From the NCBI GenBank assembly GCA_027014155.1, contig JALWEG010000011.1, forward strand, positions 1 through 51,326: DNA of 51,326 nucleotides. The letters run 5' to 3'. Position numbers and translations under genes: made by a program. The DNA is from Aquificaceae bacterium (lineage in GTDB: Bacteria; Aquificota; Aquificia; Aquificales; Aquificaceae). Of this stretch, positions 11,945 through 49,176 are shown in pieces; positions within the stretch are counted from its first letter, which is position 1; every line of letters begins with the position of its first letter. Under the pieces are notes generated by a model that was not told where the DNA came from, searched no databases, and worked only from the letters and a program-made list of their open reading frames with translations.

Positions 11945-12919
11945 ATGCTCAGGTTTCTTTTGGTAAGGCTACTCCAAGCCCTGCCCACCCTCCTTGGAGT
12001 CACCTTCATATCCTTTGTGATAATCAAGCTCGCTCCCGGGGACTTCTTAGACCAGCTCAGGCTCAACCCGCAGATTTCTCCCGAGACCATAGACCGCCTC
12101 AAGAGGCTCTACGGCTTAGATCAGCCGCTTTTAGTTCAGTACCTAAGGTGGCTGAAGTCGGCTCTGCTCTTTGACCTGGGATACTCCTTCCAGTATCACA
12201 CCCCGGTGCTGGAGTTGATAAAGGAGAGGCTTCCCAACACCCTGCTGCTTTCTGTGAGTTCAGCCCTTCTGTCCTGGGTTATGGCCGTGCCTCTGGGAAC
12301 CTTAGCCGCTTTCAAAGAGGGTAGCCATATAGATAGGCTGATTAAAGCCTTTTCCTACTCTTTTATGTCAATTCCCAGCTTCTTCTTGGCTTTCTTGTTC
12401 CTGTTTCTGGCCTCAAAGACCGGCTGGTTTCCCATAGGTGGAGTTCAGAGTCCAAACTTCCACGAGCTATCCTTACCGGAAAAGGTGCTGGATTTGCTGC
12501 ATCACCTCTTTATCCCGGCGATGACCATAGCCTTGGTATCCCTCGCCGGACTCACGAGGCTCGTTAGAAGCTCGGTTCTTGAGGTGCTCCACAGTCCCAT
12601 GGTGCTCATGCTGAGAGCTAAAGGGGTGTCCAATACCACCTTGCTCAAGCACGTTCTTAAGAATGCCATGAATCCCTTTACCACGTTGATAGGCTACGAA
12701 ATTGCCGCTCTGATTTCCGGTGCCGCTTTAATAGAGATAATAGTGGGTTGGCCGGGCATGGGAGCCCTTATGCTGGACGCCGTTCTCTCCCAGGACCTAT
12801 TTCTCGTGATGGGAGGGCTTTATATAGGAACCATAATGCTAATAGTGGGCAATCTGATAGCGGACCTGCTGCTGGCATGGATAGACCCGAGGGTCAGGGA
12901 AAAGGAGATGGGAGTCTAA
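11945..12919 (+). CDS. ABC transporter permease, DppB/OppB type
   Basis: 324 residues, six TM helices. The N-terminus MLRFLLVRLLQALPTLLGV with FVIIKLAPGD is diagnostic of DppB/OppB permeases, and the EAA loop is present (RAKGVSNTTLLKHVLKNAMNP), where the ATPase docks. It should import oligopeptides, nickel or similar solutes. Oddly, no partner permease (DppC), ATPase or binding protein is adjacent; the following gene is on the other strand with overlapping stop codons. The rest of the transporter must be elsewhere. Confidence 0.88.
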   Translation: MLRFLLVRLLQALPTLLGVTFISFVIIKLAPGDFLDQLRLNPQISPETIDRLKRLYGLDQPLLVQYLRWLKSALLFDLGYSFQYHTPVLELIKERLPNTLLLSVSSALLSWVMAVPLGTLAAFKEGSHIDRLIKAFSYSFMSIPSFFLAFLFLFLASKTGWFPIGGVQSPNFHELSLPEKVLDLLHHLFIPAMTIALVSLAGLTRLVRSSVLEVLHSPMVLMLRAKGVSNTTLLKHVLKNAMNPFTTLIGYEIAALISGAALIEIIVGWPGMGALMLDAVLSQDLFLVMGGLYIGTIMLIVGNLIADLLLAWIDPRVREKEMGV

Positions 12920-14070
12920 GATTTGACTCTGTAGAACTTCCTGGCCATAAAGAAGGTAAGCAGGTGCAAGGGAAGCAGTGCGTCCCAGAAGTAGGTAAAG
13001 AGGGAAGCAGTTAAGTGAAGACCCAGGAGGAATAGGGAAGGAATGGCCACCAGCTGCTCTCTTTTTTGTAGCCTGAGCCCGAAAAGGGTTTTGAAAAAGG
13101 ATACGTAAATCACGAGTATCCCCAGAAGTCCTATCAGACCTCGCTCTATAAACTCGCTGAAGAAGACAAAGGATTCGTAAGAGCCTTCTCTATGGTCTCC
13201 CCTCTTAAGGTTCAGGCCGAAGCCGGGTCTGACACCGTGTCCTACCAGCAGGTTCATAACTCTGCCCTCCTTCCAATCTTCCTTTACCACCTCAAGCCCC
13301 CTTTCAAAGAGATACACTCTGTTGCTGAGTATCCTGTTCATGGTGTCTCTATCCGGCGAACTTTTCAAGGTGATGACCTCGTAGAGCCTTTGGAACCTCT
13401 CATCTCTGTCCTTCATATACATAAAGCCGACCCCGACCGCGAGCAGGAGCGCCGCGGAGCCTACGAAAACCAGCCGTAGGTTTATGAAACTCCTGAGCAC
13501 GAACACCAGAAGTCCCAAACATAGGATTAGAGCAAGGAGCGGAGAGCGCTTTGATATTATGAGGGTCAGGAAGGCGTAGGCCGTGCCGGCAGCAAAGAAG
13601 GCAATGAGCAGTTTTTTTTTCTCCTTGTAAATCACAGCGTAAACGAAGCAGCTCAGAGCGAGCAAAGAGGACAGAAAACCCGCTTCAAAGGGACCTCCCC
13701 ATATCGGCTTGAACTCTCCTTGAGTAAAGTATCTAATCAGAGCTACAAGAAGGCTCACGTTGCCCAGAACGAAGATTGTAAGGTTTATCCCTTTGAACAC
13801 ATCTTGCGAAGGGTTTACTTCCTTGCCTAAGATGCCGGCGAGGGGAAGCAGCGCCTGCTCAAGGGCCTTAGCGGAGGCTTGGGGGTTGAAGGCAAAGGTT
13901 CCCGCGAGGGTGGAAAAGCCGTAAACGACCAGCCCCAGCTCCGGTAGGCCTCTGCTCAGTAGCATCTTGGCTTTCCAAAACACACGTATCAACGAAATAC
14001 CGCAGAGAATCTCAAAGGCCGTCAAGGACAGAAAAGAGGAGACCACGAGGGTATAAACCAGCTTCACCAT
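12916..14070 (-). CDS. O-antigen ligase / polymerase-like membrane protein (WaaL/Wzy)
   Basis: 384 residues, about ten or more TM helices with one large periplasmic loop (about residues 220-310). Family-like segments are ISKRSPLLALILCL (the usual TGSR-x-x-L motif), NLLVGHGVRPGF in the loop and ESFVFFSEFIERGLIGLLG after it. Such proteins ligate O-antigen to lipid A core or polymerise repeat units. It is the last gene in an operon with two glycosyltransferases. Ligase versus polymerase cannot be told from the sequence alone. Confidence 0.78.
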   Translation of the reverse strand: MVKLVYTLVVSSFLSLTAFEILCGISLIRVFWKAKMLLSRGLPELGLVVYGFSTLAGTFAFNPQASAKALEQALLPLAGILGKEVNPSQDVFKGINLTIFVLGNVSLLVALIRYFTQGEFKPIWGGPFEAGFLSSLLALSCFVYAVIYKEKKKLLIAFFAAGTAYAFLTLIISKRSPLLALILCLGLLVFVLRSFINLRLVFVGSAALLLAVGVGFMYMKDRDERFQRLYEVITLKSSPDRDTMNRILSNRVYLFERGLEVVKEDWKEGRVMNLLVGHGVRPGFGLNLKRGDHREGSYESFVFFSEFIERGLIGLLGILVIYVSFFKTLFGLRLQKREQLVAIPSLFLLGLHLTASLFTYFWDALLPLHLLTFFMARKFYRVKS

Positions 14071-15410
14071 CTTCCCACGAGCTTTACCTCCTTCCCGAAT
14101 AGCCTGAAGCTCTCAAGCAGCCTGCCCTCTGCAGTGCCTTCCGTGCAGAGTATATTAACCTCCCATCTCTCCTCGTATCTGGATTTCCTAAGATACTTGT
14201 CTCCGATAAGGCTCACGTAAAGGCAAAGGGACTTTACCTCTTCACAATCGCAGGCAATTCTCTTATCTCCGTAAAGCTGAACTATCCGGGTGGCCGCCTC
14301 TTTGGCAGAACCCCTCTTCTCGTCTATAAGGGTCAAAGAGAAGCCGAAGATAAGCCGTGTCAAGATGAAGACAGATGCCAACCCTAAGAATAGCTTATAC
14401 GCACGTTCCTTTTGCACCACTAAGGGAGATAGAGACAGGGCCGTTAAGGGAAACAGGGGTAGTATGTACCTTCCCCTGCTGCCCGCGGCAAAAAGGTAAG
14501 GTAGGTAATTGAGAGCGAGGCTCAGTAAAATGGGATTCAGCTCCCTCGGTAAGGTGGGGAGCCTCCTATCTTTGAGCAGTATCACGATAAGCACCACGCT
14601 GGCGGGTAGTGTCTGCTTGAGGTTGAGCAGTGGGTAGGCTATCAGGTGCCAGATAAGCTTCCACAGGTTGAAAGAACCCTCAACCCTTGCGGAGCTCTCC
14701 AGAAAGAGCCTCTTAGCAAACTCTTCCGGATAATGGGTCAGGAGAAGCCACGTTAGGGGAAGCAAGAGAGAAAGTAGCGCTCCGCCCCAGCTATGAACGG
14801 ATTTTAGAACTTCGTACCTTTTTGAGTGCAGGAGAAAGGCAAGGAATGTAATCAGATAGAAGCCGTAGGCAGGCAGACCTTTGAGGAGAAAGGCTCCGGC
14901 CGTGAATAGACCCGCGAACCAAAAAAGGAACGTACTCTTATAGAAGCTCAGATACAAAGATACGGTTCCCAGAAGAATAAAGAAGGTAAAGGCGGCATCT
15001 ATCTCGCCGAGCCAGCCGTACCAAAAGAGAATGTCGGAAAAGGTTAAGTAGGTTAATCCGGCCAGCAGAGCGAGTTTGGCATCTTTCAGAAGGTAGTAGG
15101 CGAACATACAGACGGTAAGAGCCGAGAGACAGGAAAAGCTTAATGAGATGAGCCTCAGAGACAACTCTCCCCAGCCCAGCAGGCTTGATGAGAGCAGTAT
15201 GAGCCAGTTAAACAGAGGAGGCTTATTGAAGTAAGGTTCTCCCAAAAAGTAGGGTTGTAAAAACTCCCCCCTCTTTACCATCTCCCAAGCTATGAGAACC
15301 CTCCTGGACTCTTCCATTCGGAACTCGTAGCTTCCGAGGTTGGGCAGCATGGATACGGCCGCTCCGAGAATTAGGAAAAGCAAGAGGAAGGAACTTACTC
15401 TCTTTCCCAT
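14064..15410 (-). CDS. ArnT/PMT-like glycosyltransferase (GT-C fold)
   Basis: 448 residues, 11-12 TM helices. The first periplasmic loop has the acidic GT-C motif with the expected spacing (EFRMEESRRVLIAWEMVKRG), followed by EPYFNKPPLFNWL, a hallmark of ArnT-like enzymes that move a sugar from polyprenyl phosphate onto lipid A, protein or glycan. The GRYILPLFPLTALSL block is near residue 315. It overlaps GT2 by 16 nt and the ligase by 7 nt. The exact substrate is unknown. Confidence 0.85.
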   Translation of the reverse strand: MGKRVSSFLLLFLILGAAVSMLPNLGSYEFRMEESRRVLIAWEMVKRGEFLQPYFLGEPYFNKPPLFNWLILLSSSLLGWGELSLRLISLSFSCLSALTVCMFAYYLLKDAKLALLAGLTYLTFSDILFWYGWLGEIDAAFTFFILLGTVSLYLSFYKSTFLFWFAGLFTAGAFLLKGLPAYGFYLITFLAFLLHSKRYEVLKSVHSWGGALLSLLLPLTWLLLTHYPEEFAKRLFLESSARVEGSFNLWKLIWHLIAYPLLNLKQTLPASVVLIVILLKDRRLPTLPRELNPILLSLALNYLPYLFAAGSRGRYILPLFPLTALSLSPLVVQKERAYKLFLGLASVFILTRLIFGFSLTLIDEKRGSAKEAATRIVQLYGDKRIACDCEEVKSLCLYVSLIGDKYLRKSRYEERWEVNILCTEGTAEGRLLESFRLFGKEVKLVGRW

Positions 15411-16168
15411 ACTTTCTTCCCGAAACGCTCCTTAAGGTGCATCTCCAGCAGGAAGGCGTACTTCATGAAGGTGTAAAAGGCTCCCGAGGCGGATACGATT
15501 AGACCTCTACGACCCTCAAGAAAGGCTCTCTTTATGAAGAAGACCTTTATGAAGTGCCACGTGGGGTTGAGCAGGAGGTTAAGGTAGCCGGGCCTTTTGC
15601 CCCTTTTGTATAAAAGTTCCGATACCATGCGTGCGTACCTTATGTTCTTTGCAAAGTGTTCCTCAAGGCTCTCAAAGGAGTAGTGGTGTATGACGCCCTT
15701 TTTTATCTTTCCTACGCTGCCATCGCACCTGCACACGTCGTGCCCTTCGTCCACGAACACACCTTTACCCCTTCTGAAGAGTCTAAGCCTCCACTCCGGA
15801 AACCAGCCGTGCTCAAGGAACTTTCCCAGAAAGTAGGTCTGTCTGTTGAGCAGATAGCAATCGTAAGCGGGTTTGCTCAGTGTCCGCTCTATCTCCCGGG
15901 CAAGCTCCCTCGTCAGCTCCTCGTCGGCGTCCAAAGACAGCACCCACTCCCCCCGTGCCAGGCTAACCGCGTAGTTCTTCTGCTTGACGTAGCCCTCCCA
16001 CTCCCTTACGGCCACGCGGGCACCTAAGGACCGAGCTATCTGAAGGGTTCTGTCGGTAGAGCCGGAATCAACCACTATCACCTCGTCGCTTATACTCAGG
16101 ACGCTCCTTATGCATCTTTCTATGTTCCTTTCCTCGTTCTTGGTAAGTATTACCGCGGACAGCTTCAT
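15395..16168 (-). CDS. GT2 glycosyltransferase, WaaE/KdtX-like
   Basis: 257 residues. The GT-A fold is clear: AVILTKNEERNIERCIRSV, VVDSGSTDRTLQIA, the DxD-type motif LSLDADEEL, and a WFPEWRLRLFRRG segment typical of LPS inner-core beta-1,4-glucosyltransferases of the WaaE family. It is probably a cytoplasmic-face enzyme adding a sugar to LPS core. It starts inside the mscS stop (4-nt overlap), so the operon reads mscS, GT2, ArnT-like, ligase-like. Confidence 0.86.
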   Translation of the reverse strand: MKLSAVILTKNEERNIERCIRSVLSISDEVIVVDSGSTDRTLQIARSLGARVAVREWEGYVKQKNYAVSLARGEWVLSLDADEELTRELAREIERTLSKPAYDCYLLNRQTYFLGKFLEHGWFPEWRLRLFRRGKGVFVDEGHDVCRCDGSVGKIKKGVIHHYSFESLEEHFAKNIRYARMVSELLYKRGKRPGYLNLLLNPTWHFIKVFFIKRAFLEGRRGLIVSASGAFYTFMKYAFLLEMHLKERFGKKVWERE

Positions 16169-28257: not shown

Positions 28258-29376
28258 TTAAACCGTCCCTTTTTCTTGTCTGCGCCTGTGTTTATCCATC
28301 TTCTCTCCGACGAACCGGGTAAACTCCCTGATAAACCTCTCTTTGCTAAAGCTCTCAGCCTTGGCTCTTATGTAATGTCTGTCTAAATTTCCCTCCAAAG
28401 CCTCAAAGCGCTCCAGAGCCTCCAGCAGGGCAGACGGCGTTTGCTCTTTGAATAGAACTCCGCTCTTGCCTTCCTCAACTATCTCCACCGCTCCCCCTCT
28501 GCCGAAGGCCACCACGGGCGTTCCGCAGGCCATAGCCTCCACCATGGATATGCCGAAGTCTTCTTCCGCAGCGTAAACAAAGGCTTTGGCCTCCCTTAGA
28601 TATCTTTTCATATCCTCCTCCCTCAAAGTCCCCAACCCCCTAACGTTGGGATAAGTCCCGTCAAACTTGTGAGTTCCTTCACCTATAAGGTATACCTTCC
28701 TTTTGGGTGTCTTTGCGAAAGCTCGGACTATAAGTTCCAACTTCTTGTAAGGCACGTGCCTTGATACGCACACGTAGAAGTCCTCCCTTCTGTTGGGATT
28801 AAACTCAAAGGAGCCGACATCAACCGGTGGGTATATCACCTTCGCCCTCCTTCTGTAAACGTTCCTGATCCTTCTGGCTACATACTTGGAATTGGCTACA
28901 AAGTGGTCAACCCTGACGGCCGTGCTAAGGTCCCACAGACGTATGTAGTGCAAGAATAGAGCGGCGATGGGCTTGAGCGGGGTCGCAACCGAGTCCATGT
29001 ATTGGTGATACAAATCCCACGCATACCTTATGGGCGTGTGGCAGTAGCATATATGGAGTTGCTCAGGGCGCTTTAGGACACCCTTGGCGACCGCGTGGGA
29101 AGAGGAAACGATAAGCTCAAAGTCGCTCAAATCAAACTGTTCTACGCACAAGGGCATCAGCGGCAAAAGGTATCTGTAAAGCCTTCCTACCGCAGGTATC
29201 CTCTGGAGCAAAGAGGTGTTGATGGAGATATCCCCGAGGTGTTCCCTCTCTTCACCCCTTAGCGTGTTCACCAAGGTAAAAATCTCCGCGTTAGGGACAC
29301 ACTCCACTATGGCCTCAAGAACCCTCTCCGAGCCGGCCCAGGTGGTAAGCCAGTCGTGAACGACCGCCGTCTTCAT
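28258..29376 (-). CDS. GT4-family glycosyltransferase (second of pair)
   Basis: 372 residues, GT-B fold. The N-terminus has AVVHDWLTTWAGSERVLEAI, the nucleotide-sugar domain has RHVPYKKLELIVRAF and the EX7E motif lies in EEDFGISMVEAMACGTPVVAF. It probably adds a hexose to a lipid-linked or surface glycan. The start overlaps the upstream GT4 stop by 4 nt. The C-terminus is rich in Lys/Arg, perhaps membrane-binding. Confidence 0.88.
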   Translation of the reverse strand: MKTAVVHDWLTTWAGSERVLEAIVECVPNAEIFTLVNTLRGEEREHLGDISINTSLLQRIPAVGRLYRYLLPLMPLCVEQFDLSDFELIVSSSHAVAKGVLKRPEQLHICYCHTPIRYAWDLYHQYMDSVATPLKPIAALFLHYIRLWDLSTAVRVDHFVANSKYVARRIRNVYRRRAKVIYPPVDVGSFEFNPNRREDFYVCVSRHVPYKKLELIVRAFAKTPKRKVYLIGEGTHKFDGTYPNVRGLGTLREEDMKRYLREAKAFVYAAEEDFGISMVEAMACGTPVVAFGRGGAVEIVEEGKSGVLFKEQTPSALLEALERFEALEGNLDRHYIRAKAESFSKERFIREFTRFVGEKMDKHRRRQEKGTV

Positions 29377-30446
29377 AAAAACTCCCTGAAAAGCTCGTAG
29401 TGGGAAAGTGCAGAGCTATCCCAGCTAAAGCTCCTCGCTCTCTTTATACCCTTTATTATCAACTCTTCCCTCAAACGGGAATCTTCTATCAGCCTTTGCA
29501 TAGCTTGGGAAACCTCTTCGTGCTCTCTCGGATTGAAGTAAAGCGCCGCATCACCGCACACCTCCGGCAGGCTTGATACATTTGAAACCGCCACGGGGCA
29601 GCCGCAGGCCATAGCCTCAAGGGGCGGGAAGCCAAAACCCTCATACAGCGAAGGGAAGACAAAGAGATAAGCCTTTCTGTAAAGCTTTGCCAACTCCTCA
29701 TCGCTTCTGACGCTGTCCATAACCTCTACCCTGTCTCCCAATTTACGTATGCCCTTAAACAGCTCCGAGCTTTTCCAGCTTTCGGCACCCACTATCTTGA
29801 GCTTAAACTCCCTCCTTACGTAATCGGGCAGCAATTTATAGGCATCAAGCAGAACTTTAAGGTTCTTTCTGGGCTGGAGGGAGCCGACGAAGAGTATAAA
29901 CTTCTCCTTCTCTGACTGCGAAGGAAAGAATACGGAGTCGTCTATTCCGTGATAGATTACCCTGACCTTGCCGGTATCAATACCGAACACTTCCACCAGC
30001 TCACCTTTGACAAACTCCGAGGGTACCACGAAGGCGTCAGACCTGCCTAAATACTTGGGAAAGTTCTCCTTGAAGAAGAGATATCTGTGTTCCGGAAGCC
30101 AATCTCTGCGCAAAAAAGATAGGTCGTGGACGGTAGTTATTACGGCTCTGCTTTTGACCCGCAGCATGGGTATGAAGTTAGGCTCAAAGTAAAGGTCAAA
30201 GCTCTGTGAGCTCCTTGAGAGCAGGCCGTAAGCTAACTTCTTGAGGGTATTCCAAAGAAGGGGGTACCTTTTAAGGAATCCTTTCAGCCCCTCTAACTCC
30301 TTTACTTCCAGTTCTCTGGTGAATCTGCCAGAAAAGAAGGTGGTGTCCTCGTTTAGCTCAGAGAGCCTTTTGGCTACGTTCAGAGTGTAAACCCCCACCC
30401 CCGTCTTGGGAGAAAGTAGGGTGGAGGTGTTTATAAGCAATCTCAC
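29373..30446 (-). CDS. GT4-family glycosyltransferase (first of pair)
   Basis: 357 residues, GT-B fold. Visible blocks are [50 protein letters not shown] and the donor-binding [19 protein letters not shown] with the conserved Glu pair. The pair with the next gene indicates stepwise assembly of a small glycan. Curiously it lies 6 nt behind a surface subtilase, so the three form one operon; glycosylation of the protease or of a surface layer is conceivable but unproven. Confidence 0.88.
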
Positions 30447-30452
30447 CCGCGG

Positions 30453-32297
30453 TTATGCTCTGTAAAACCTACCCCTCAGGAATATGGCCAAGAACATGAG
30501 AAGAACCAGCAGCATATCCCCGGCAACCTTGCCGCCTATGGGAGCTACGGAACAACCGCCACCCTTTGGAGTGGAAGTTGCCGCCAAGGCTCCGTTGACG
30601 CTCAGCTTTCCGTATCCCCAGTCGCTGTTGGGCGAGTTTTGAGTAAACATGTCATGGTAGGCGGTGGAGGTGAGTATGTTCTTAACCTCGTAGAGTTTGA
30701 GTCTGTAGTTCTTGCTGAGCATCAAGGCCACGGTTCCGCTAACGACAGGTGCCGCCATGCTGGTTCCCTGCAACGCCTTATATTCACTCTCACCACATAC
30801 GTCGTAGGCTCCATTAGAAATATACGTAGGAAATGCGGAACATATAAGCTCTCCGGGAGCGACGATGTCGGGTTTCACGAGAACGGGACAACCCTTGGAA
30901 CAACCTCTCGTGGGACCCCTACCGCTGAAGACCGATAGGTCGTTGAGGGTAGAGCCTGCGTTTACGTTTGAGGCTATCTTGCTGGTAAATGAGCCCACGA
31001 CGATTATGCCGTCAACGGCAGAATCAGAAGCGAGGGTATATCTGGGCGACGCGTTGGCAAACGCCAAACCCGCACCCCAAGCGTGATAGGTGCCCTTAAC
31101 TACGTTATCCCCCCTTATGTTTATGCTCCATATATAACTGGAGATGCCGGCGCTCTCTATCTCTATGGCTATCTCCTTGTCTCCGTTCAGGGGGTTTACG
31201 TCGCTGGAGCTGATGTTCACGGTTCCGCAGGTTCCCAGCTTGTAGGTTACCGTAGAGGCTACGGGAACAAAGGGAGTTGAACCGCAGGGGGAGGTTATCT
31301 GCACGGAAAAGCTATCGCTTCCGGGATACCACAGGTCTATGGCCGAATACTTGGAGCCTATAACGAAGCTGTGGGACACGGTGGCACCCTGCCCAACGCT
31401 ACCGCCGACGTGAATTCCATCTGCGGCACTGTTGCCCGCCGCCTTAACTATTATTACCCCTTCCTTTGAGAAGTTTTCCAAGGCTTTTGAAAAGAGGTCG
31501 GAGCCGTCGTGGGGACCTAAATCCGAACCTAAGCTCAGGTTTATCACGAACGGCTTCTTGAGAACTTCCGCCTTCTCGCGCACAAACCTGATTCCGACGA
31601 TTACACCGTCGGAAGAGACTTCATACTCGCCCACCTTAACGGCGATAATCTCGGCCGCGGGAGCCACCCCTACGTAGGAAGTTTGGCTGCCGTCGCTCCT
31701 TTTGCCGCTTCCGGCGGCTATACCCGCCACGTGGGTGCCGTGTCCTACGTTGTCCCTTTGCTTACACTGATTGGCGTCTATCTTCTTCTTATCGCACACC
31801 TCACCGGTGGTGGTGTCGTATATATAGACCACCCTTCCCGCTATTGAGGGGTGGTTGTAGTCCACTCCCGAGTCAAGTATGCCTATGATTACCCCGCTAC
31901 CGTTGTATTTGGCGAACTCTCCGTATCTGACCTTGTCGGCACCGCTGGCTATCGCAGCGCTGTCTAAGTCGTACCTGAGCTTTTTGGGCTTTTCTATAAA
32001 CTCAACCCTGTTATCTTCGGACAGTGCGGACAGAGCCTTTATATCAAACTTAGCCGTGAGCACGTCCCCAACCTGAGCTATAAACTCCCCCCCGTACTCT
32101 TTAACGAGAGCTTCTCCGTCTATATCTTCAGAGGAAAGCTTTATAAGAACGCCGGTTTTATAGACGAGCTTTGCCTCTCCTTCGCCCTGAAGCTTAGCCG
32201 CCTTGCTTACATCAATTTTAAGCCAAGGGTCTATCTTTTCCGCAGTCAGTCCGAGGGAAGCTAAAAAAAACGTTCCCAGTATTAATCTTTTTATCAT
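30453..32297 (-). CDS. Secreted subtilase (S8) with C-terminal GGGCS sorting-like tail
   Basis: 614 residues. A signal peptide (residues 1-19) is followed by an N-terminal propeptide-like domain, then the S8 catalytic triad D142 (ILDSGVDYNHP), H186 (GHGTHVAG) and S513 ([12 protein letters not shown]), with oxyanion N289 (AAGN). A ~150-residue insertion between Asn and Ser resembles a jelly-roll domain. The C-terminus reads GGGCS, then a TM segment (DMLLVLLMFLAIFL), then RGR..RA, a layout like known C-terminal sorting signals. SD GGAGGGATAAG precedes the ATG. Paralogous to the subtilase at 47221. Confidence 0.9.
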   Translation of the reverse strand: MIKRLILGTFFLASLGLTAEKIDPWLKIDVSKAAKLQGEGEAKLVYKTGVLIKLSSEDIDGEALVKEYGGEFIAQVGDVLTAKFDIKALSALSEDNRVEFIEKPKKLRYDLDSAAIASGADKVRYGEFAKYNGSGVIIGILDSGVDYNHPSIAGRVVYIYDTTTGEVCDKKKIDANQCKQRDNVGHGTHVAGIAAGSGKRSDGSQTSYVGVAPAAEIIAVKVGEYEVSSDGVIVGIRFVREKAEVLKKPFVINLSLGSDLGPHDGSDLFSKALENFSKEGVIIVKAAGNSAADGIHVGGSVGQGATVSHSFVIGSKYSAIDLWYPGSDSFSVQITSPCGSTPFVPVASTVTYKLGTCGTVNISSSDVNPLNGDKEIAIEIESAGISSYIWSINIRGDNVVKGTYHAWGAGLAFANASPRYTLASDSAVDGIIVVGSFTSKIASNVNAGSTLNDLSVFSGRGPTRGCSKGCPVLVKPDIVAPGELICSAFPTYISNGAYDVCGESEYKALQGTSMAAPVVSGTVALMLSKNYRLKLYEVKNILTSTAYHDMFTQNSPNSDWGYGKLSVNGALAATSTPKGGGCSVAPIGGKVAGDMLLVLLMFLAIFLRGRFYRA

Positions 32298-37240: not shown

Positions 37241-38545
37241 ATGTCCGCACTGAGGATAATCCTCTTCTTAGGAGTGCTCTTGATGGGAAAGACTCTAATG
37301 GCTCAGGAGCTTTACATAAGAGACCTGCCCAACGGAATGAAGCTCATAGTCCAGCCCCGCCAGGACACGGAGGCAGTTGCCCTGCACGTGTGGTTCAGAG
37401 TAGGCTCGGTCTATGAGAAATACGACGAGAAAGGTATGGCCCACTTCCTGGAGCACATGCTCTTCAACGGCTCGGAAAAGTACGCTTACGGAGAGATAGA
37501 CTTCATAGTGGAGAGCTTGGGGGGAAACATAAACGCCGGAACCTCTAAGGACTTCACCTACTACCACATAGAGATAGCTCACCCCTACTGGAAAAAAGCC
37601 CTTGAGCTACTACACCAGCTCACCCTAAGGGCCACCCTTGACGAGGACATGATGAAAAAGGAAAAGGAAATAGTCATAGAGGAGCTAAGGAGAGGCAAGG
37701 ACAACCCGACCACGGTGCTCTGGGAGGAGTTTGAGAAGCAAGCCTACAAGGTATCCCCCTACAGATTTCCCATAATAGGCTTTGAAGACACCATAAGGAA
37801 GTTTACGAGGGATATGCTCCTTAACTTCTACAGAAGCTACTACCAGCCCAGAAACGGAGCGGTGGTGGTGGTAGGCAAAGTTGACCCACAAGAGGTAGAG
37901 GAGGAGGTTCTAAAAACCTTCGGCAGAGAGGAAGGCAGGAAGGTTCCAAAGCCCCAGATACTACCCGAACCCCCGCAGGAGGGAATAAGATTTAAAGAGA
38001 TTCGCGACCCCAGGATACAGAAGGCCTACTGGATTATAGGTTGGCGCGTCCCGCCCATACCGAGAAAGGAGTCCTACGCCTTGGCCGTGCTTGACCAGAT
38101 ACTCTCCGTCGGCAGGACTTCCATATTCTACAGAGAGCTCAGAGAAAAGGGAGTGGTCTATTCAGTGTTCGCCGGAGACTTGGGAAGGCCCAGAGACAAC
38201 ATGTTCGTCATAAGCGCCACCTTTGACCCGGACAGATACGAGGAGGTGAAGTCCAAAGTGTTCCAGCTACTGAAAGATACCTACTCCAACCTGACCGACG
38301 AGCAGATTGAGGAGGCAAAGAGGAGGATAGTAAACTCCAGAATCTTTGAGGAGGAAAGAGTTGAGAGCCAGGCCTACGACATAGGCTACGCCTACACGGT
38401 GGCAAGAGACCTTGACTTTTACAGATTCTACGAAAGCAACGTAAGCTCCGTCAGGAGAGTGGACGTCCAGAGAATATTTGAGAGGTTTCTAAAAGAGGAC
38501 AACTACGTGGAAGTCCTCATGCTTCCCGAGGAAAGCTCCAGATGA
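37241..38545 (+). CDS. M16 family zinc peptidase (active subunit)
   Basis: 434 residues. An N-terminal signal (IILFLGVLLMGKTLMAQ) indicates export. The inverted zinc motif HFLEH (in MAHFLEHMLFNGSEK) and the distal Glu in a VIEELRRG segment give an active site. The two-domain M16 layout is complete. It resembles processing-peptidase/PqqL-like proteins that pair with an inactive partner. Its last 4 nt overlap the start of the next gene, the likely partner. Confidence 0.92.
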   Translation: MSALRIILFLGVLLMGKTLMAQELYIRDLPNGMKLIVQPRQDTEAVALHVWFRVGSVYEKYDEKGMAHFLEHMLFNGSEKYAYGEIDFIVESLGGNINAGTSKDFTYYHIEIAHPYWKKALELLHQLTLRATLDEDMMKKEKEIVIEELRRGKDNPTTVLWEEFEKQAYKVSPYRFPIIGFEDTIRKFTRDMLLNFYRSYYQPRNGAVVVVGKVDPQEVEEEVLKTFGREEGRKVPKPQILPEPPQEGIRFKEIRDPRIQKAYWIIGWRVPPIPRKESYALAVLDQILSVGRTSIFYRELREKGVVYSVFAGDLGRPRDNMFVISATFDPDRYEEVKSKVFQLLKDTYSNLTDEQIEEAKRRIVNSRIFEEERVESQAYDIGYAYTVARDLDFYRFYESNVSSVRRVDVQRIFERFLKEDNYVEVLMLPEESSR

Positions 38546-39801
38546 TTTACCTGCTGACGCTGGTGGCACTGCTCTTACTAAACTTCGGAGGCAACGCAAA
38601 GATGGTAGAAAAACGGCTTGACAACGGAGTTAAGCTCATAGTAAAGGAAACGGAAGGCAAAGGGATAGTCTCGGCGGTGATGTTCATAAAGGCTGGCCAG
38701 TGGGGAGAAAAGCTAAGGGGAGAGACCAACCTGCTGATGAACCTCCTGATAAAGGAATCCAAAAACTTCTCCACCTACGAGGTGGCCTCAACCTTTGAGG
38801 ACTATGGAGGATACATATACGCCTCCTCCGCGGACGACTACTCGGAGATAGGATTCTCCACCCACAGGGACGGCCTTGAGAAGGCTCTGAAGGTCTTCAA
38901 AGACCTGCTCCTGAACCCTGCCCTCAAAGAGGAGGACATAGAAAGGGAAAAGAGAAACACGATAATCGCCATACGCTCCAAACGGGAGAAAGGCTTCCAG
39001 TACGCCATGGAACACCTCAGAAAGCTAACCTACGAAGGCACACCCTACGAGACCTCACCCTTGGGAACGGAGGAGGATATTCAGAAGATAGATAGAAACC
39101 ACCTGCTTCGCAGGTTAAAGGAGATACTCAAAGGAAAAAACGTGGTCTTCGCCCTCGTAGGAGACGTAAAGGCACAGGAGGTTCTTCCAAAGCTTGAGAA
39201 AATTCTATCCCTCATACCCCAAGGCGAATACGAACCCCCTGTAAAGGATTCGCAGATAAAAGAGGACAAAGTTCTAAAGGTCAAAAGGGAAGGAACGCAG
39301 GCAACGATACTCTGCGCCTTCAACGCCCCGCCCATCACCTCCGACGACTACTTCAGCTTTAAGGTTCTCGTCAGCCTCTTGGGGGACGGCATGACCTCCA
39401 AGCTCTTTAAGGAACTCAGAGAAAAGAAAGGCTACGCCTACGCCACGTTTGCATTCTACCCGACCCGCATCAGCTCACCGCGCATGTTCTCCTACATAGG
39501 CACCTCTCCCGACAAGAGGGAGAACGCCCTAAAAGACATGCTAAAGGTTATAAAGGAGCTAAAGGTTGAAGAGCAAGAGGTGGAGCTGGCCAAGAACAAG
39601 ATAATCGGCGACTTCCTGCTTGACCACCAGACCAGAATGAGACAGGCCTGGTATTTAGGCTTTTACGAGGTCGTAGGTTTTGGCTGGAAGATGGACTCCC
39701 AATACCCGGAAAGGATAAAAAAAGTGTCCGCCGAGCACCTCACAAAGGCCGCCGAGATATACACGAAGCTCCACCACTGCGTCATGGTTGAGCCATTCTA
39801 A
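38542..39801 (+). CDS. M16 family protein lacking the zinc motif (inactive partner)
   Basis: 419 residues with a signal peptide (MIYLLTLVALLLLNFGG). The fold follows M16 (DNGVKLIVKE, VMFIKAGQWGE, FKVLVSLLGDGMTSKLFKEL), but where HxxEH should stand the sequence is NLLMNLLI, so it cannot bind zinc. Tandem active/inactive M16 pairs form heterodimers. It overlaps the active subunit by 4 nt. Confidence 0.9.
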   Translation: MIYLLTLVALLLLNFGGNAKMVEKRLDNGVKLIVKETEGKGIVSAVMFIKAGQWGEKLRGETNLLMNLLIKESKNFSTYEVASTFEDYGGYIYASSADDYSEIGFSTHRDGLEKALKVFKDLLLNPALKEEDIEREKRNTIIAIRSKREKGFQYAMEHLRKLTYEGTPYETSPLGTEEDIQKIDRNHLLRRLKEILKGKNVVFALVGDVKAQEVLPKLEKILSLIPQGEYEPPVKDSQIKEDKVLKVKREGTQATILCAFNAPPITSDDYFSFKVLVSLLGDGMTSKLFKELREKKGYAYATFAFYPTRISSPRMFSYIGTSPDKRENALKDMLKVIKELKVEEQEVELAKNKIIGDFLLDHQTRMRQAWYLGFYEVVGFGWKMDSQYPERIKKVSAEHLTKAAEIYTKLHHCVMVEPF

Positions 39802-46628: not shown

Positions 46629-47210
46629 ATGAAGGTTGATAAGGAGTTAGACCTTAGCGGCCTGTCCTGTCCCCTTCCCATAGTTATGACCTCCGAAGCC
46701 GTGAAAAAGTTGGAAGAAGGAAAGGTCATCAAGGTAGTTTCCACAGACCCAGGCTTTGAGAGGGACGTGTGGAACTGGAGCAATCAAACTAAGAACAAAC
46801 TCCTTGACCTCCAAAAGGAAGGAGACAAGATAGTGGCCTACATAAAGAAGGAGGGCGAAGGTAGCGAACCCTCCCTGTGGTACTGGATAAAGTTCCACTC
46901 CTTAGGAGTGAAGCTGCACCTGAGACTGATACTCATGCATCTGAACCCCTTTGCAGATAAGCCGGACCACTTCATAACCTTCGTGGCTATATCGGAGGGC
47001 ACCAGAGCGGAGAAGCACCTCAAGAAAATAAATAAGAAAGCTAAGCTCATTCCCATACCGGACGAGATAGACCCCCGATGCGGTGTAGTTCTTGCGGTAA
47101 AAGGATTTGAAAGGGCCAAAGATATATACGAGCACCTACTTAAGGAAAACTACGGAGTTGAAGCTATATACAGAAAGGAAGGCGAGAGCTATAAAAAAGT
47201 ATTTCCCTAA
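46629..47210 (+). CDS. TusA-like sulfur carrier fused to DUF3343
   Basis: 193 residues. The TusA domain (1-73) has the sulfur-carrying Cys14 in LDLSGLSCPLPIV and the DPGFERDVWNWSNQ segment. A linker containing a hydrophobic helix (~83-110, WYWIKFHSLGVKL) leads to a DUF3343 domain (~115-185: FVAISEGTRAEKHLKK, PIPDEIDPRCGVVLAV with Cys151). Fusions of these two domains handle persulfide or selenium transfer. The organism's context suggests sulfur metabolism. No sulfur oxidation genes are adjacent. Confidence 0.82.
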   Translation: MKVDKELDLSGLSCPLPIVMTSEAVKKLEEGKVIKVVSTDPGFERDVWNWSNQTKNKLLDLQKEGDKIVAYIKKEGEGSEPSLWYWIKFHSLGVKLHLRLILMHLNPFADKPDHFITFVAISEGTRAEKHLKKINKKAKLIPIPDEIDPRCGVVLAVKGFERAKDIYEHLLKENYGVEAIYRKEGESYKKVFP

Positions 47211-47220
47211 AAACCTGCTT

Positions 47221-49176
47221 ATGCTTATAGTAGTAGCTTACTTAATCTTACTGAGCCTGGTTTCTTCCTTTGCCGGTAAGATAGACCCTTTACTGAAGTT
47301 TGAGCTGGGAAGCCTGGAGCTTAGCTCAAGGGATTCTGATTCTATAGGACAGGGAATATACCGGGACGTTCTGATAAAGCTGTCTTCCCAAAAGGTAAAC
47401 GGCGAAAGCCTCGTAAGGGAGTACGGAGGCATTCCGGGAGTTCAGAAGAGGGACATAATAACGGCTAAGGTCAAGAAAGATACTATATCCTTTCTGGCTC
47501 AAGACGATAGGGTTCTGTTCGTAAGCGCATCAAAAAAGGTTAAGTACCACCTTGATGCCGTATCTGCAGCTACCGGACTCTTTAAGTTAAAGGAAGGAAA
47601 CTCCCGAAGGTTCACAGGCAAGGGCGTAATCGTAGGCATAGTTGATTCCGGTATAGACTACAGACACCCGGCCTTTGAGAACAGGATACTTTACATATAC
47701 GACCTCTCCAGCGGAGAGGTTTGCGACAAAGAAAAGATAAAAAATCTAAGATGCAACCAAAGAGACAGAATAGGACACGGCACCCACGTGGCCGGTATCG
47801 CGGCGGGCAACGGAAAGGCACCTGCCGGTGAACAAACCCCCTACGTGGGCATAGCTCCCGAAGCAGAGATAATTATGGTTAGTTTGGGGGTAGAAAGCGG
47901 CATAGAGGAAGACGACGTAATAAAGGGAATAGAGTTTATAAAAAACAAAGCTAAGGAGTTGGATAAGCCCCTCGTAGTTAACCTCAGCTTAGGAACGGAC
48001 GTAGGACCCCACGACGGCACCGACCTGTTTTCCCAAGCGCTAAGGAAGTTCATAGACGAGGGTGTAATAATTGTCAAGTCGGCCGGAAACAGCGCCTATT
48101 TCAACTTGCATATCTCCGGAAATGTAGCTCAAGGGGAAGAAAAGACATACCCCTTTAGAATGAAAGAAAATCTGAATCTAATAGACATCTGGTATCCGGG
48201 AAGCGATAAGTTGGAAGTTAAGGTATCTACGCCCTGCGGAGATACGGATTTTATAAGGGAAGGCAGCCACGTTCGTTATAGAGGCAGCTGTGCTCAGGTG
48301 GAGATACTGTCCGACGATGTGAACCCTCTAAACGGAGATAAGGAAATCCTTATAGGCATCCTCACATCACCCCAGTACCTTTCTTATAAGTGGGCCATCA
48401 CCGTAAAAGGAAGCCTAATTAAGAAGGGTGGTTTTCACGCCTGGGGAACGGCTTCGGAATTTGACGACGGAGATAACAACTACTCCGTATCCTCCGATTC
48501 CACCCTAAAAGAGCTAATCGTGGTAGGCTCATTCTCTTCTAAGGTTATAAAGGAGGTAAACTCTTACGCTAAACCTTACGAGATATCCATATTCAGCGGC
48601 AGGGGACCTACAAGGGAATGCTCCGCCGGGTGTAGAAGCGTAATAAAACCGGATTTGGCAGCCCCCGGAGATACGGTATGCTCCGCATACTCCTCTATGG
48701 CTCCGGTAAGGAGAAAGTATATTCAACTCTGCGGCTTTATCAATTACGTACCTCTGTCCGGCACCAGCATGGCGGCCCCGGTGGTGGCAGGCACCGTAGC
48801 CCTGATGCTTAGCAAGAACCCAGGGCTTACACCCTCCCAGGTTAAGGAGATACTAAAGACCGCTACCTATTCGGACAGCTTTGTCAACGGTAGCCTAAGC
48901 TTTGCATCGCCTTCTGTCCTTCCCAACAACGTGTGGGGCTACGGAAAACTGGAGATAGCTAAAGCCCTTGAGTTTACACCATCTCCCGAACCGCCTAAAG
49001 AAGAAACACCTCCACCACCGGAGCAGGCACCTGAACCAACTCCCCAACCTCCTGAAGAACAAGCCCCCGAGCTTGTTTCCTCCGGTGGAGGTGGAGGCTG
49101 TTCTACGGCTACATCTTCTTACCTCTTAGCTCTGCTTCTCTTAGCTCTACTGCTCAAAGCCCGAAGAACTCTCTAA
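47221..49176 (+). CDS. Secreted subtilase (S8) with Pro-rich linker and GGGCS tail
   Basis: 651 residues from ATG 47221, which begins the signal peptide ([19 protein letters not shown]); there is no SD and the frame is open upstream, so the true start may lie up to 20 residues earlier. Paralog of the subtilase at 30453: DSGIDYRHP (Asp), GHGTHVAG (His), SAGN (Asn), [12 protein letters not shown] (Ser), with the same insert domain. It differs in having a Pro/Glu-rich linker ([18 protein letters not shown]) before SGGGGGCS, a TM segment ([12 protein letters not shown]) and KARRTL. It overlaps ribE tail to tail by 23 nt. Confidence 0.88.

Follow-up and report, generated by a model that had tools for sequence, protein, structure and literature searches.

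A Cys-tailed subtilase of an Aquificaceae bacterium as a probable client of a myxosortase-type sorting pathway

The subtilase Sub1, encoded in a 51,326-nucleotide stretch of Aquificaceae DNA (hereafter the window), is likely a client of a protein-sorting pathway of the myxosortase type, a reading to which we assign a probability of about 0.8. Comparison of sequences and gene order establishes a C-terminal tail shared by seven proteins of the genome, a single CPBP protease, and a linkage of this protease to tailed proteins and to genes of the type II secretion system (T2SS). In the pathway that we propose, one dedicated membrane enzyme probably trims the tails of an exported set of proteins, keeping them at the cell surface of this heat-loving bacterium.

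The subtilase gene and its glycosyltransferase neighbours

Sub1 is a protein of 614 aa that matches Peptidase_S8 (PF00082, E 6.5e-45) and possesses the D/H/S motifs of an S8 subtilase, namely D142, GHGTH (from residue 185) and GTSMA (from residue 511). The initial annotation had described a subtilase with a GGGCS-TM-Arg tail, followed after 6 nt by two GT4 genes. Both parts of this description were borne out, as the tail was located on the minus-strand gene product and the two downstream genes run in the same direction, each with a Glycos_transf_1 domain. The features are as follows.

30453..32297, minus strand: Sub1, S8 subtilase with signal peptide, D/H/S triad and C-terminal Cys-TM-Arg tail
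30456..30563, minus strand: putative sorting tail of Sub1, residues 579-614, GGG-Cys582-S, a short linker, a TM helix and RGRFYRA
29373..30446, minus strand: GT4-1 glycosyltransferase, Glycos_transf_1 (PF00534, E 3.3e-38), 6-nt gap downstream of Sub1
28258..29376, minus strand: GT4-2 glycosyltransferase, Glycos_transf_1 (PF00534, E 3.1e-24), 4-nt overlap with GT4-1

The close spacing of Sub1 and GT4-1 is what one would expect if the subtilase belonged to a glycan or surface-polymer pathway, in which the two GT4 genes would glycosylate it or make its polysaccharide anchor. The order subtilase then GT4 is kept in two genera (g1 and g7), where it occurs in our genome, G063, G040 and G047, and further GT- and ligase-like genes were seen by eye elsewhere in the window. 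Both GT genes follow the subtilase in the same-genus genome G063, in the order found here, while one opposite-strand ORF separates the subtilase from GT4 in G047, and G043 offers for comparison, at a contig end, a truncated ORF whose start is similar. However, the flanks read, mostly of 1.5 kb, were without GT4 in 18 of the 22 genomes that have a subtilase homologue, and we saw no oligosaccharyltransferase next to the genes. We therefore regard a role in a glycan pathway as distinctly unlikely. Glycan attachment, as suggested in the initial annotation, is not supported overall; what speaks for it is genomic, in that GT4 follows the subtilase in 4 of these 22 genomes, a minimum given the 1.5-kb flanks of most loci. 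The association of subtilase and GT4 is mild but real, and the GT4 genes are as likely to have a role in LPS or polysaccharide formation as in glycosylation of the protease, to which nothing seen points.

A separate three-gene run on the minus strand of the window (12916-16168) encodes, judged by eye, an O-antigen-ligase-type membrane protein, an ArnT-like glycosyltransferase and a GT2 enzyme, and is a possible lipopolysaccharide cluster.

The tail and the proteins that carry it

A profile made from three tails, searched against the genome, retrieved four further proteins, with every match at the end of an ORF (E 1.7e-6 to 0.07). The profile of all seven tails gave seven matches at E <= 1.2e-11, these being its own seeds, and the next match had an E-value of 1.24. 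Besides Sub1, the tailed set consists of a second subtilase, also in the window, and five other proteins.

47107..49176, plus strand: Sub2, second S8 subtilase, a Sub1 paralogue with 49% identity over the aligned part
49084..49173, plus strand: putative sorting tail of Sub2, GGGGG-Cys665, a TM helix and KARRTL
Contig C15: tailed Ig-domain protein with a PF22544 (HYDIN/VesB-like) match
Contig C65: tailed PKD-domain protein
Contig C65: tailed right-handed beta-helix protein
Contig C63: tailed PKD/InlB-repeat protein of 1384 aa
L105:4637-7477, minus strand: tailed C4 protein of 946 aa with an N-terminal GT2 domain

The true start of Sub2 is probably internal, at MLIVVAYL. By eye, a signal-peptide-like N-terminus is present in six of the seven proteins, the C4 protein being the one without. 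The C-terminal region of the C4 protein looks lyase- or beta-helix-like by eye and is followed by the tail, in which the final basic residue is Lys, not Arg. Because of its start and this Lys, the C4 protein is the least certain client, and it is an odd one as well, since a GT domain would be expected in the cytoplasm. Together the seven clients would equip the surface with proteases and with adhesin- or lyase-like proteins.

When each tail was left out of the profile in turn, all seven scored above the best non-tail ORF among 506 ORFs. Five did so clearly (15.4-39.4 bits), whereas the tails of Sub1 (7.3 bits against 4.4 for the best non-tail ORF) and of the C4 protein (6.3 against 4.6) were weak. 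A regular-expression rule found the tail on two of the 52 genes of the window. Despite its weak score we accepted the tail of Sub1 because it is conserved in its orthologue and homologues. The orthologue from the same genus (L128, GGGCYVLPAGSKVLGDMLLVSLLLIGILLRGRLYR) retains GGGC, the helix and RGR..YR. Twenty-four homologues were matched in 22 of 64 genomes of the family, and the same kind of rule recognized a Cys-TM-basic tail in 20 of them. The four that fail the rule are L130, whose tail, recognized by eye, has a longer end, L147, which ends at GGGC, the tail-less L134, and L146, whose reading frame lies at the edge of the locus and shows no tail.

These features could also be read as simple anchoring of the C-terminus, in which the helix would stay in the inner membrane, the Gly-rich linker and the Cys would be incidental, and no cleavage would take place. 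A helix and an Arg suffice for anchoring, the distance from the Cys to the end varies between 24 and 32 residues, and some tails score weakly, as noted above. However, a Cys immediately after the Gly run is invariant in all seven tails and is seen again in tailed subtilases from other genera, and both the protease and the T2SS genes show linkage to tailed proteins (see below). A plain anchor is thus unlikely, and we regard the tail as a real, shared signal. The proposal in the initial annotation that it is a sorting signal has gained support, with six other tailed proteins in the genome, seven with Sub1, and one CPBP (CAAX-like) candidate protease near one of them. The refuting condition that the annotation had set, an absence of both further tailed proteins and a candidate enzyme, therefore does not hold.

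Two adjoining M16-like peptidase genes, recognized by eye and with an HFLEH motif in the first, are also present in the window (37241-39801, plus strand). Pairs of similar look lie near the T2SS-protease locus of G043 and G047 (L095, L096).

The candidate sorting enzyme and known sorting systems

Exactly one protein of the genome matches PF02517 (CPBP, Rce1-like). It consists of 169 aa, is encoded on contig C15 and scores 60.8 bits against a cut-off of 22.4. Across 18 homologues, residues E86, E87, R91, H111 and H147 do not vary. The AF2 model (mean pLDDT 94.8) was aligned by VIA-align with the CAAX protease MmRce1 (4cad; Z 12.7, rmsd 3.4, 164 residues, 21% identity) and with SpdC (Z 13.0, rmsd 3.7, 165 residues), the next entry having a Z of 3.7. 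Foldseek alone returned weak matches, of which SpdC was the best (E 0.13), and no chain was matched in a PDB sequence search with the CPBP protease profile. With the catalytic EE..R, two His and an Rce1 fold in the model, the predicted structure assigns the protein to the CPBP family. No relatives were found when the genome contigs were scanned with the single CPBP sequence, and an alignment query was used for the second scan.

Myxosortase models rank first among the NCBIfam matches of this protein, although none of their cut-offs is reached. The best is Mrt_core NF040914 with 67.7 bits (cut-off 100), followed by MrtP with 63.5 (250), MrtS with 61.4 (130), MrtC with 50 (195), MrtX with 44.9 (180), MrtZ with 43.2 (325) and MrtJ with 39.8 (75). 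We did not file the system as MrtX, MrtJ, MrtS or Mrt_core, since it fell short of each of those cut-offs when tested. The protein does show the functional mark of a myxosortase, which is co-occurrence or neighbourhood with exported proteins that bear Cys-TM-Arg tails.

In Myxococcus xanthus, the MYXO-CTERM/MrtX report (PMC11980579) presents an invariant Cys as the mark of myxosortase signals and an experimentally supported model that comprises Sec export, a precursor held by its helix, acylation of the Cys, a cut distal to the Cys, and T2SS transport to the surface. According to that report, the Cys-modifying enzyme of Myxococcus is unidentified, with Lgt as the authors' candidate, and the link between myxosortase and T2SS is based on experiments in one organism (PMC11980579). 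Our system resembles the one described there in its tripartite tail with an invariant Cys, its CPBP glutamic intramembrane protease and its many exported clients, and the T2SS dependence seen in Myxococcus (PMC11980579) has T2SS gene linkage as its counterpart here. It differs in having a Gly-run-Cys motif instead of GCGC, a protease of about 170 aa, a protease gene within or beside T2SS operons, and another phylum as host. Membership in MYXO-CTERM/MrtX was rejected, as tails alone scored 18.8, 15.3 and 13.6 bits against the TIGR03901 cut-off of 20, and the enzyme falls short of MrtX as given above.

Two further systems resemble ours in part. The Sub1 tail alone passes the JDVT-CTERM model NF033191 with 29.2 bits (cut-off 27; 22.6 on the whole protein), and as in JDVT-CTERM/MrtJ the enzyme is a CPBP protein whose gene stands beside a client; however, seven clients are found here, whereas MrtJ has one dedicated client. 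Membership was rejected on the MrtJ score listed above, on the Sub2 tail (10.9 against 27) and on the lack of a dedicated pair. Similarly, the tail of the Ig-domain client alone passes the Synerg-CTERM model TIGR04564 (25.3 bits, cut-off 22.5), and among the named models MrtS scores best on the Hydrogenothermaceae proteases tested. Here the enzyme's MrtS score, which rises to 76.3 in relatives, stays below 130, and the Sub2 tail reaches 11.8 against 22.5, so that membership in Synerg-CTERM/MrtS was likewise rejected. For the exosortase/PEP-CTERM system, the best match to PF09721 had 10.8 bits against a cut-off of 25.7.

GlyGly-CTERM signals are not known to have an invariant Cys, and the peptidase family of Vibrio cholerae VesB, a GlyGly-CTERM/RssP client, differs from that of the subtilase client. 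The two systems are alike in a surface serine protease, a C-terminal tripartite tail and T2SS export, which is predicted here, and the PF22544 match of our Ig-domain client points to a HYDIN/VesB-like domain. The sorting protease of GlyGly-CTERM belongs to the rhomboid serine class, so a rhombosortase could in principle cut the Gly-rich tail, and the tail does have a Gly-rich motif ahead of the helix, while the genome has one rhomboid. However, this sole rhomboid has no NCBIfam match at E <= 1e-5 and does not classify as a rhombosortase, its short locus (L231) holds no tailed gene, and it is myxosortase signals that an invariant Cys marks, as given in the Myxococcus report (PMC11980579). We consider a rhombosortase system highly improbable. 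The initial annotation had pointed to either a rhombosortase or a CAAX-like protease as the enzyme to expect; the latter was found, as the one CPBP protein near a tailed protein, and the former was not.

Gene order, distribution and the proposed pathway

On contig C15, one strand carries a run of T2SS pseudopilin genes, for GspG (178 bits, cut-off 89) and for GspI-like and GspH-like proteins, followed by genes for a small protein whose start resembles that of a lipoprotein and for the tailed Ig-domain client, and by a gene that is aroD-like by eye. The CPBP gene is convergent with the aroD-like gene and overlaps it; it is two genes away from that client and outside any T2SS operon. The tail end, the aroD-like gene and the CPBP gene have the same order in the same-genus genome G063. 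In G040 and G047, the Ig-domain client stands immediately before a GspE homologue (that of G040 identified by NCBIfam). In G028, G029 and G047, a GspE...GspK operon (GspE 606-621 bits; GspK by NCBIfam or T2SSK) closes with the CPBP gene, which judged by gene order likewise ends the T2SS operon of G043. In G104, the CPBP gene closes an operon that also holds GspG and GspK, and a tailed subtilase gene lies convergent to it. In G082, G088, G091, G092 and G104, the neighbour of the protease is a tailed protein some 600 aa long, which Pfam confirms as S8 in G082 and G104.

Among the named loci, some of which may be identical to genomes of the phylum set, T2SS genes lie upstream of the protease in 5 of 24 Aquificota loci (L161 from Hydrogenobacter, L166 and L170 from Thermocrinis, L167 and L179 from Aquificaceae), and a tailed S8 homologue is near the protease in L164 (Persephonella) and in L166 and L170. 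Four of eight Nitrospirota loci (L172, L175, L178 and L183) contain a tailed subtilase homologue at most about 6 kb from the protease. Relatives from Aquificaceae and Hydrogenothermaceae thus have the protease gene at the end of a T2SS operon, beside a tailed subtilase, or both. The distinctive feature of this myxosortase-like system is a protease encoded with the T2SS in many relatives.

The neighbourhood regions are a non-random sample, since 8 of the 20 had been picked because closeness was already visible. The unbiased count of proximity is therefore that of tail matches in protease-bearing genomes, of which 10 of 84 lie within 10 kb of the protease (genera g1, g7, g18 and g21), with about one expected.

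Two observations concern other tails near proteases. The subtilase homologues of Nitrospirota MAGs near a CPBP protease end in a tail with GGGGGCS(I/V)G. In G080, an ORF of 199 aa (L088:5120-5719, minus strand) with a GGRCS-helix-RKLK tail lies just past the end of the protease gene, in the same orientation, and is perhaps a small dedicated client.

Across the phylum, 96 of 136 genomes have an Mrt_core match at E <= 0.01, none of the 136 exceeding the cut-off, and 52 have a tail profile match. The protease was detected in 47 of the 52 tail-positive genomes and in 49 of the 84 tail-negative ones; the Fisher tests of co-occurrence (p 3.5e-5 and 0.002) ignore phylogeny, and related genomes are not independent counts. 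Tail-positive genomes without a detected protease are G017, G055, G072, G073 (96% complete) and G130. About half of the protease-positive genomes lack a tail at E <= 0.01, including most Desulfurobacteriaceae. Therefore, either the clients there have a different signature or the tail model misses it. Family f5, identified as Desulfurobacteriaceae by comparison with named loci, combines the best-scoring proteases with few tail matches.

The f5 proteases (L098-L100, L022-L038) have the top Mrt_core scores, up to 83.8 bits, and in three that were aligned the last catalytic Asn position is Asp (FHWLSD). No tailed neighbour of the protease was seen in L098-L100.

In a tree of 96 proteases, those of Aquificaceae and Hydrogenothermaceae fall into one clade of 34 (support 100/98), which mixes T2SS-linked, subtilase-linked and unlinked sequences. 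The Desulfurobacteriaceae proteases (a clade of their own) and those of Nitrospirota and Myxococcota are all outside it. As the tree is midpoint-rooted, with long branches among the distant groups, we use the 34-row clade alone. On a broader reading, which we hold at even chances, Aquificaceae and Hydrogenothermaceae share a myxosortase-like clade built into the T2SS, with the protease gene last in the gsp operon; trimming of Cys-tailed clients would be integral to T2SS export to the surface in this phylum, a surface subtilase would be the core client, and the protease-subtilase pair of Nitrospirota would be a parallel case. A title-level search of the literature found no such system in Aquificota or Nitrospirota, and an earlier mention of Aquificota is possible.

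The myxosortase-type pathway that we prefer would proceed as follows. By analogy with MrtX, the client would be exported by Sec through its N-terminal signal peptide. The C-terminal helix would then hold it in the inner membrane with the N-terminal side out and the Arg in. The invariant Cys is probably acylated, and by analogy Lgt appears as the leading candidate for this step; the genome has one, ordinary Lgt, and no acyltransferase linked to the system was found beyond it. A cut by the CPBP protease C-terminal to the Cys would release the protein from the helix. Finally, the T2SS may take the folded protein, probably anchored by a lipid, to the outer surface.

That gene order connects the protease, the T2SS and the tailed clients in a second phylum lends independent support to the proposed order of steps. 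With one enzyme and seven clients, the system is small, and the acylation step would be open to testing in it. The tail would also predict which proteins of Aquificaceae sit on the cell surface.
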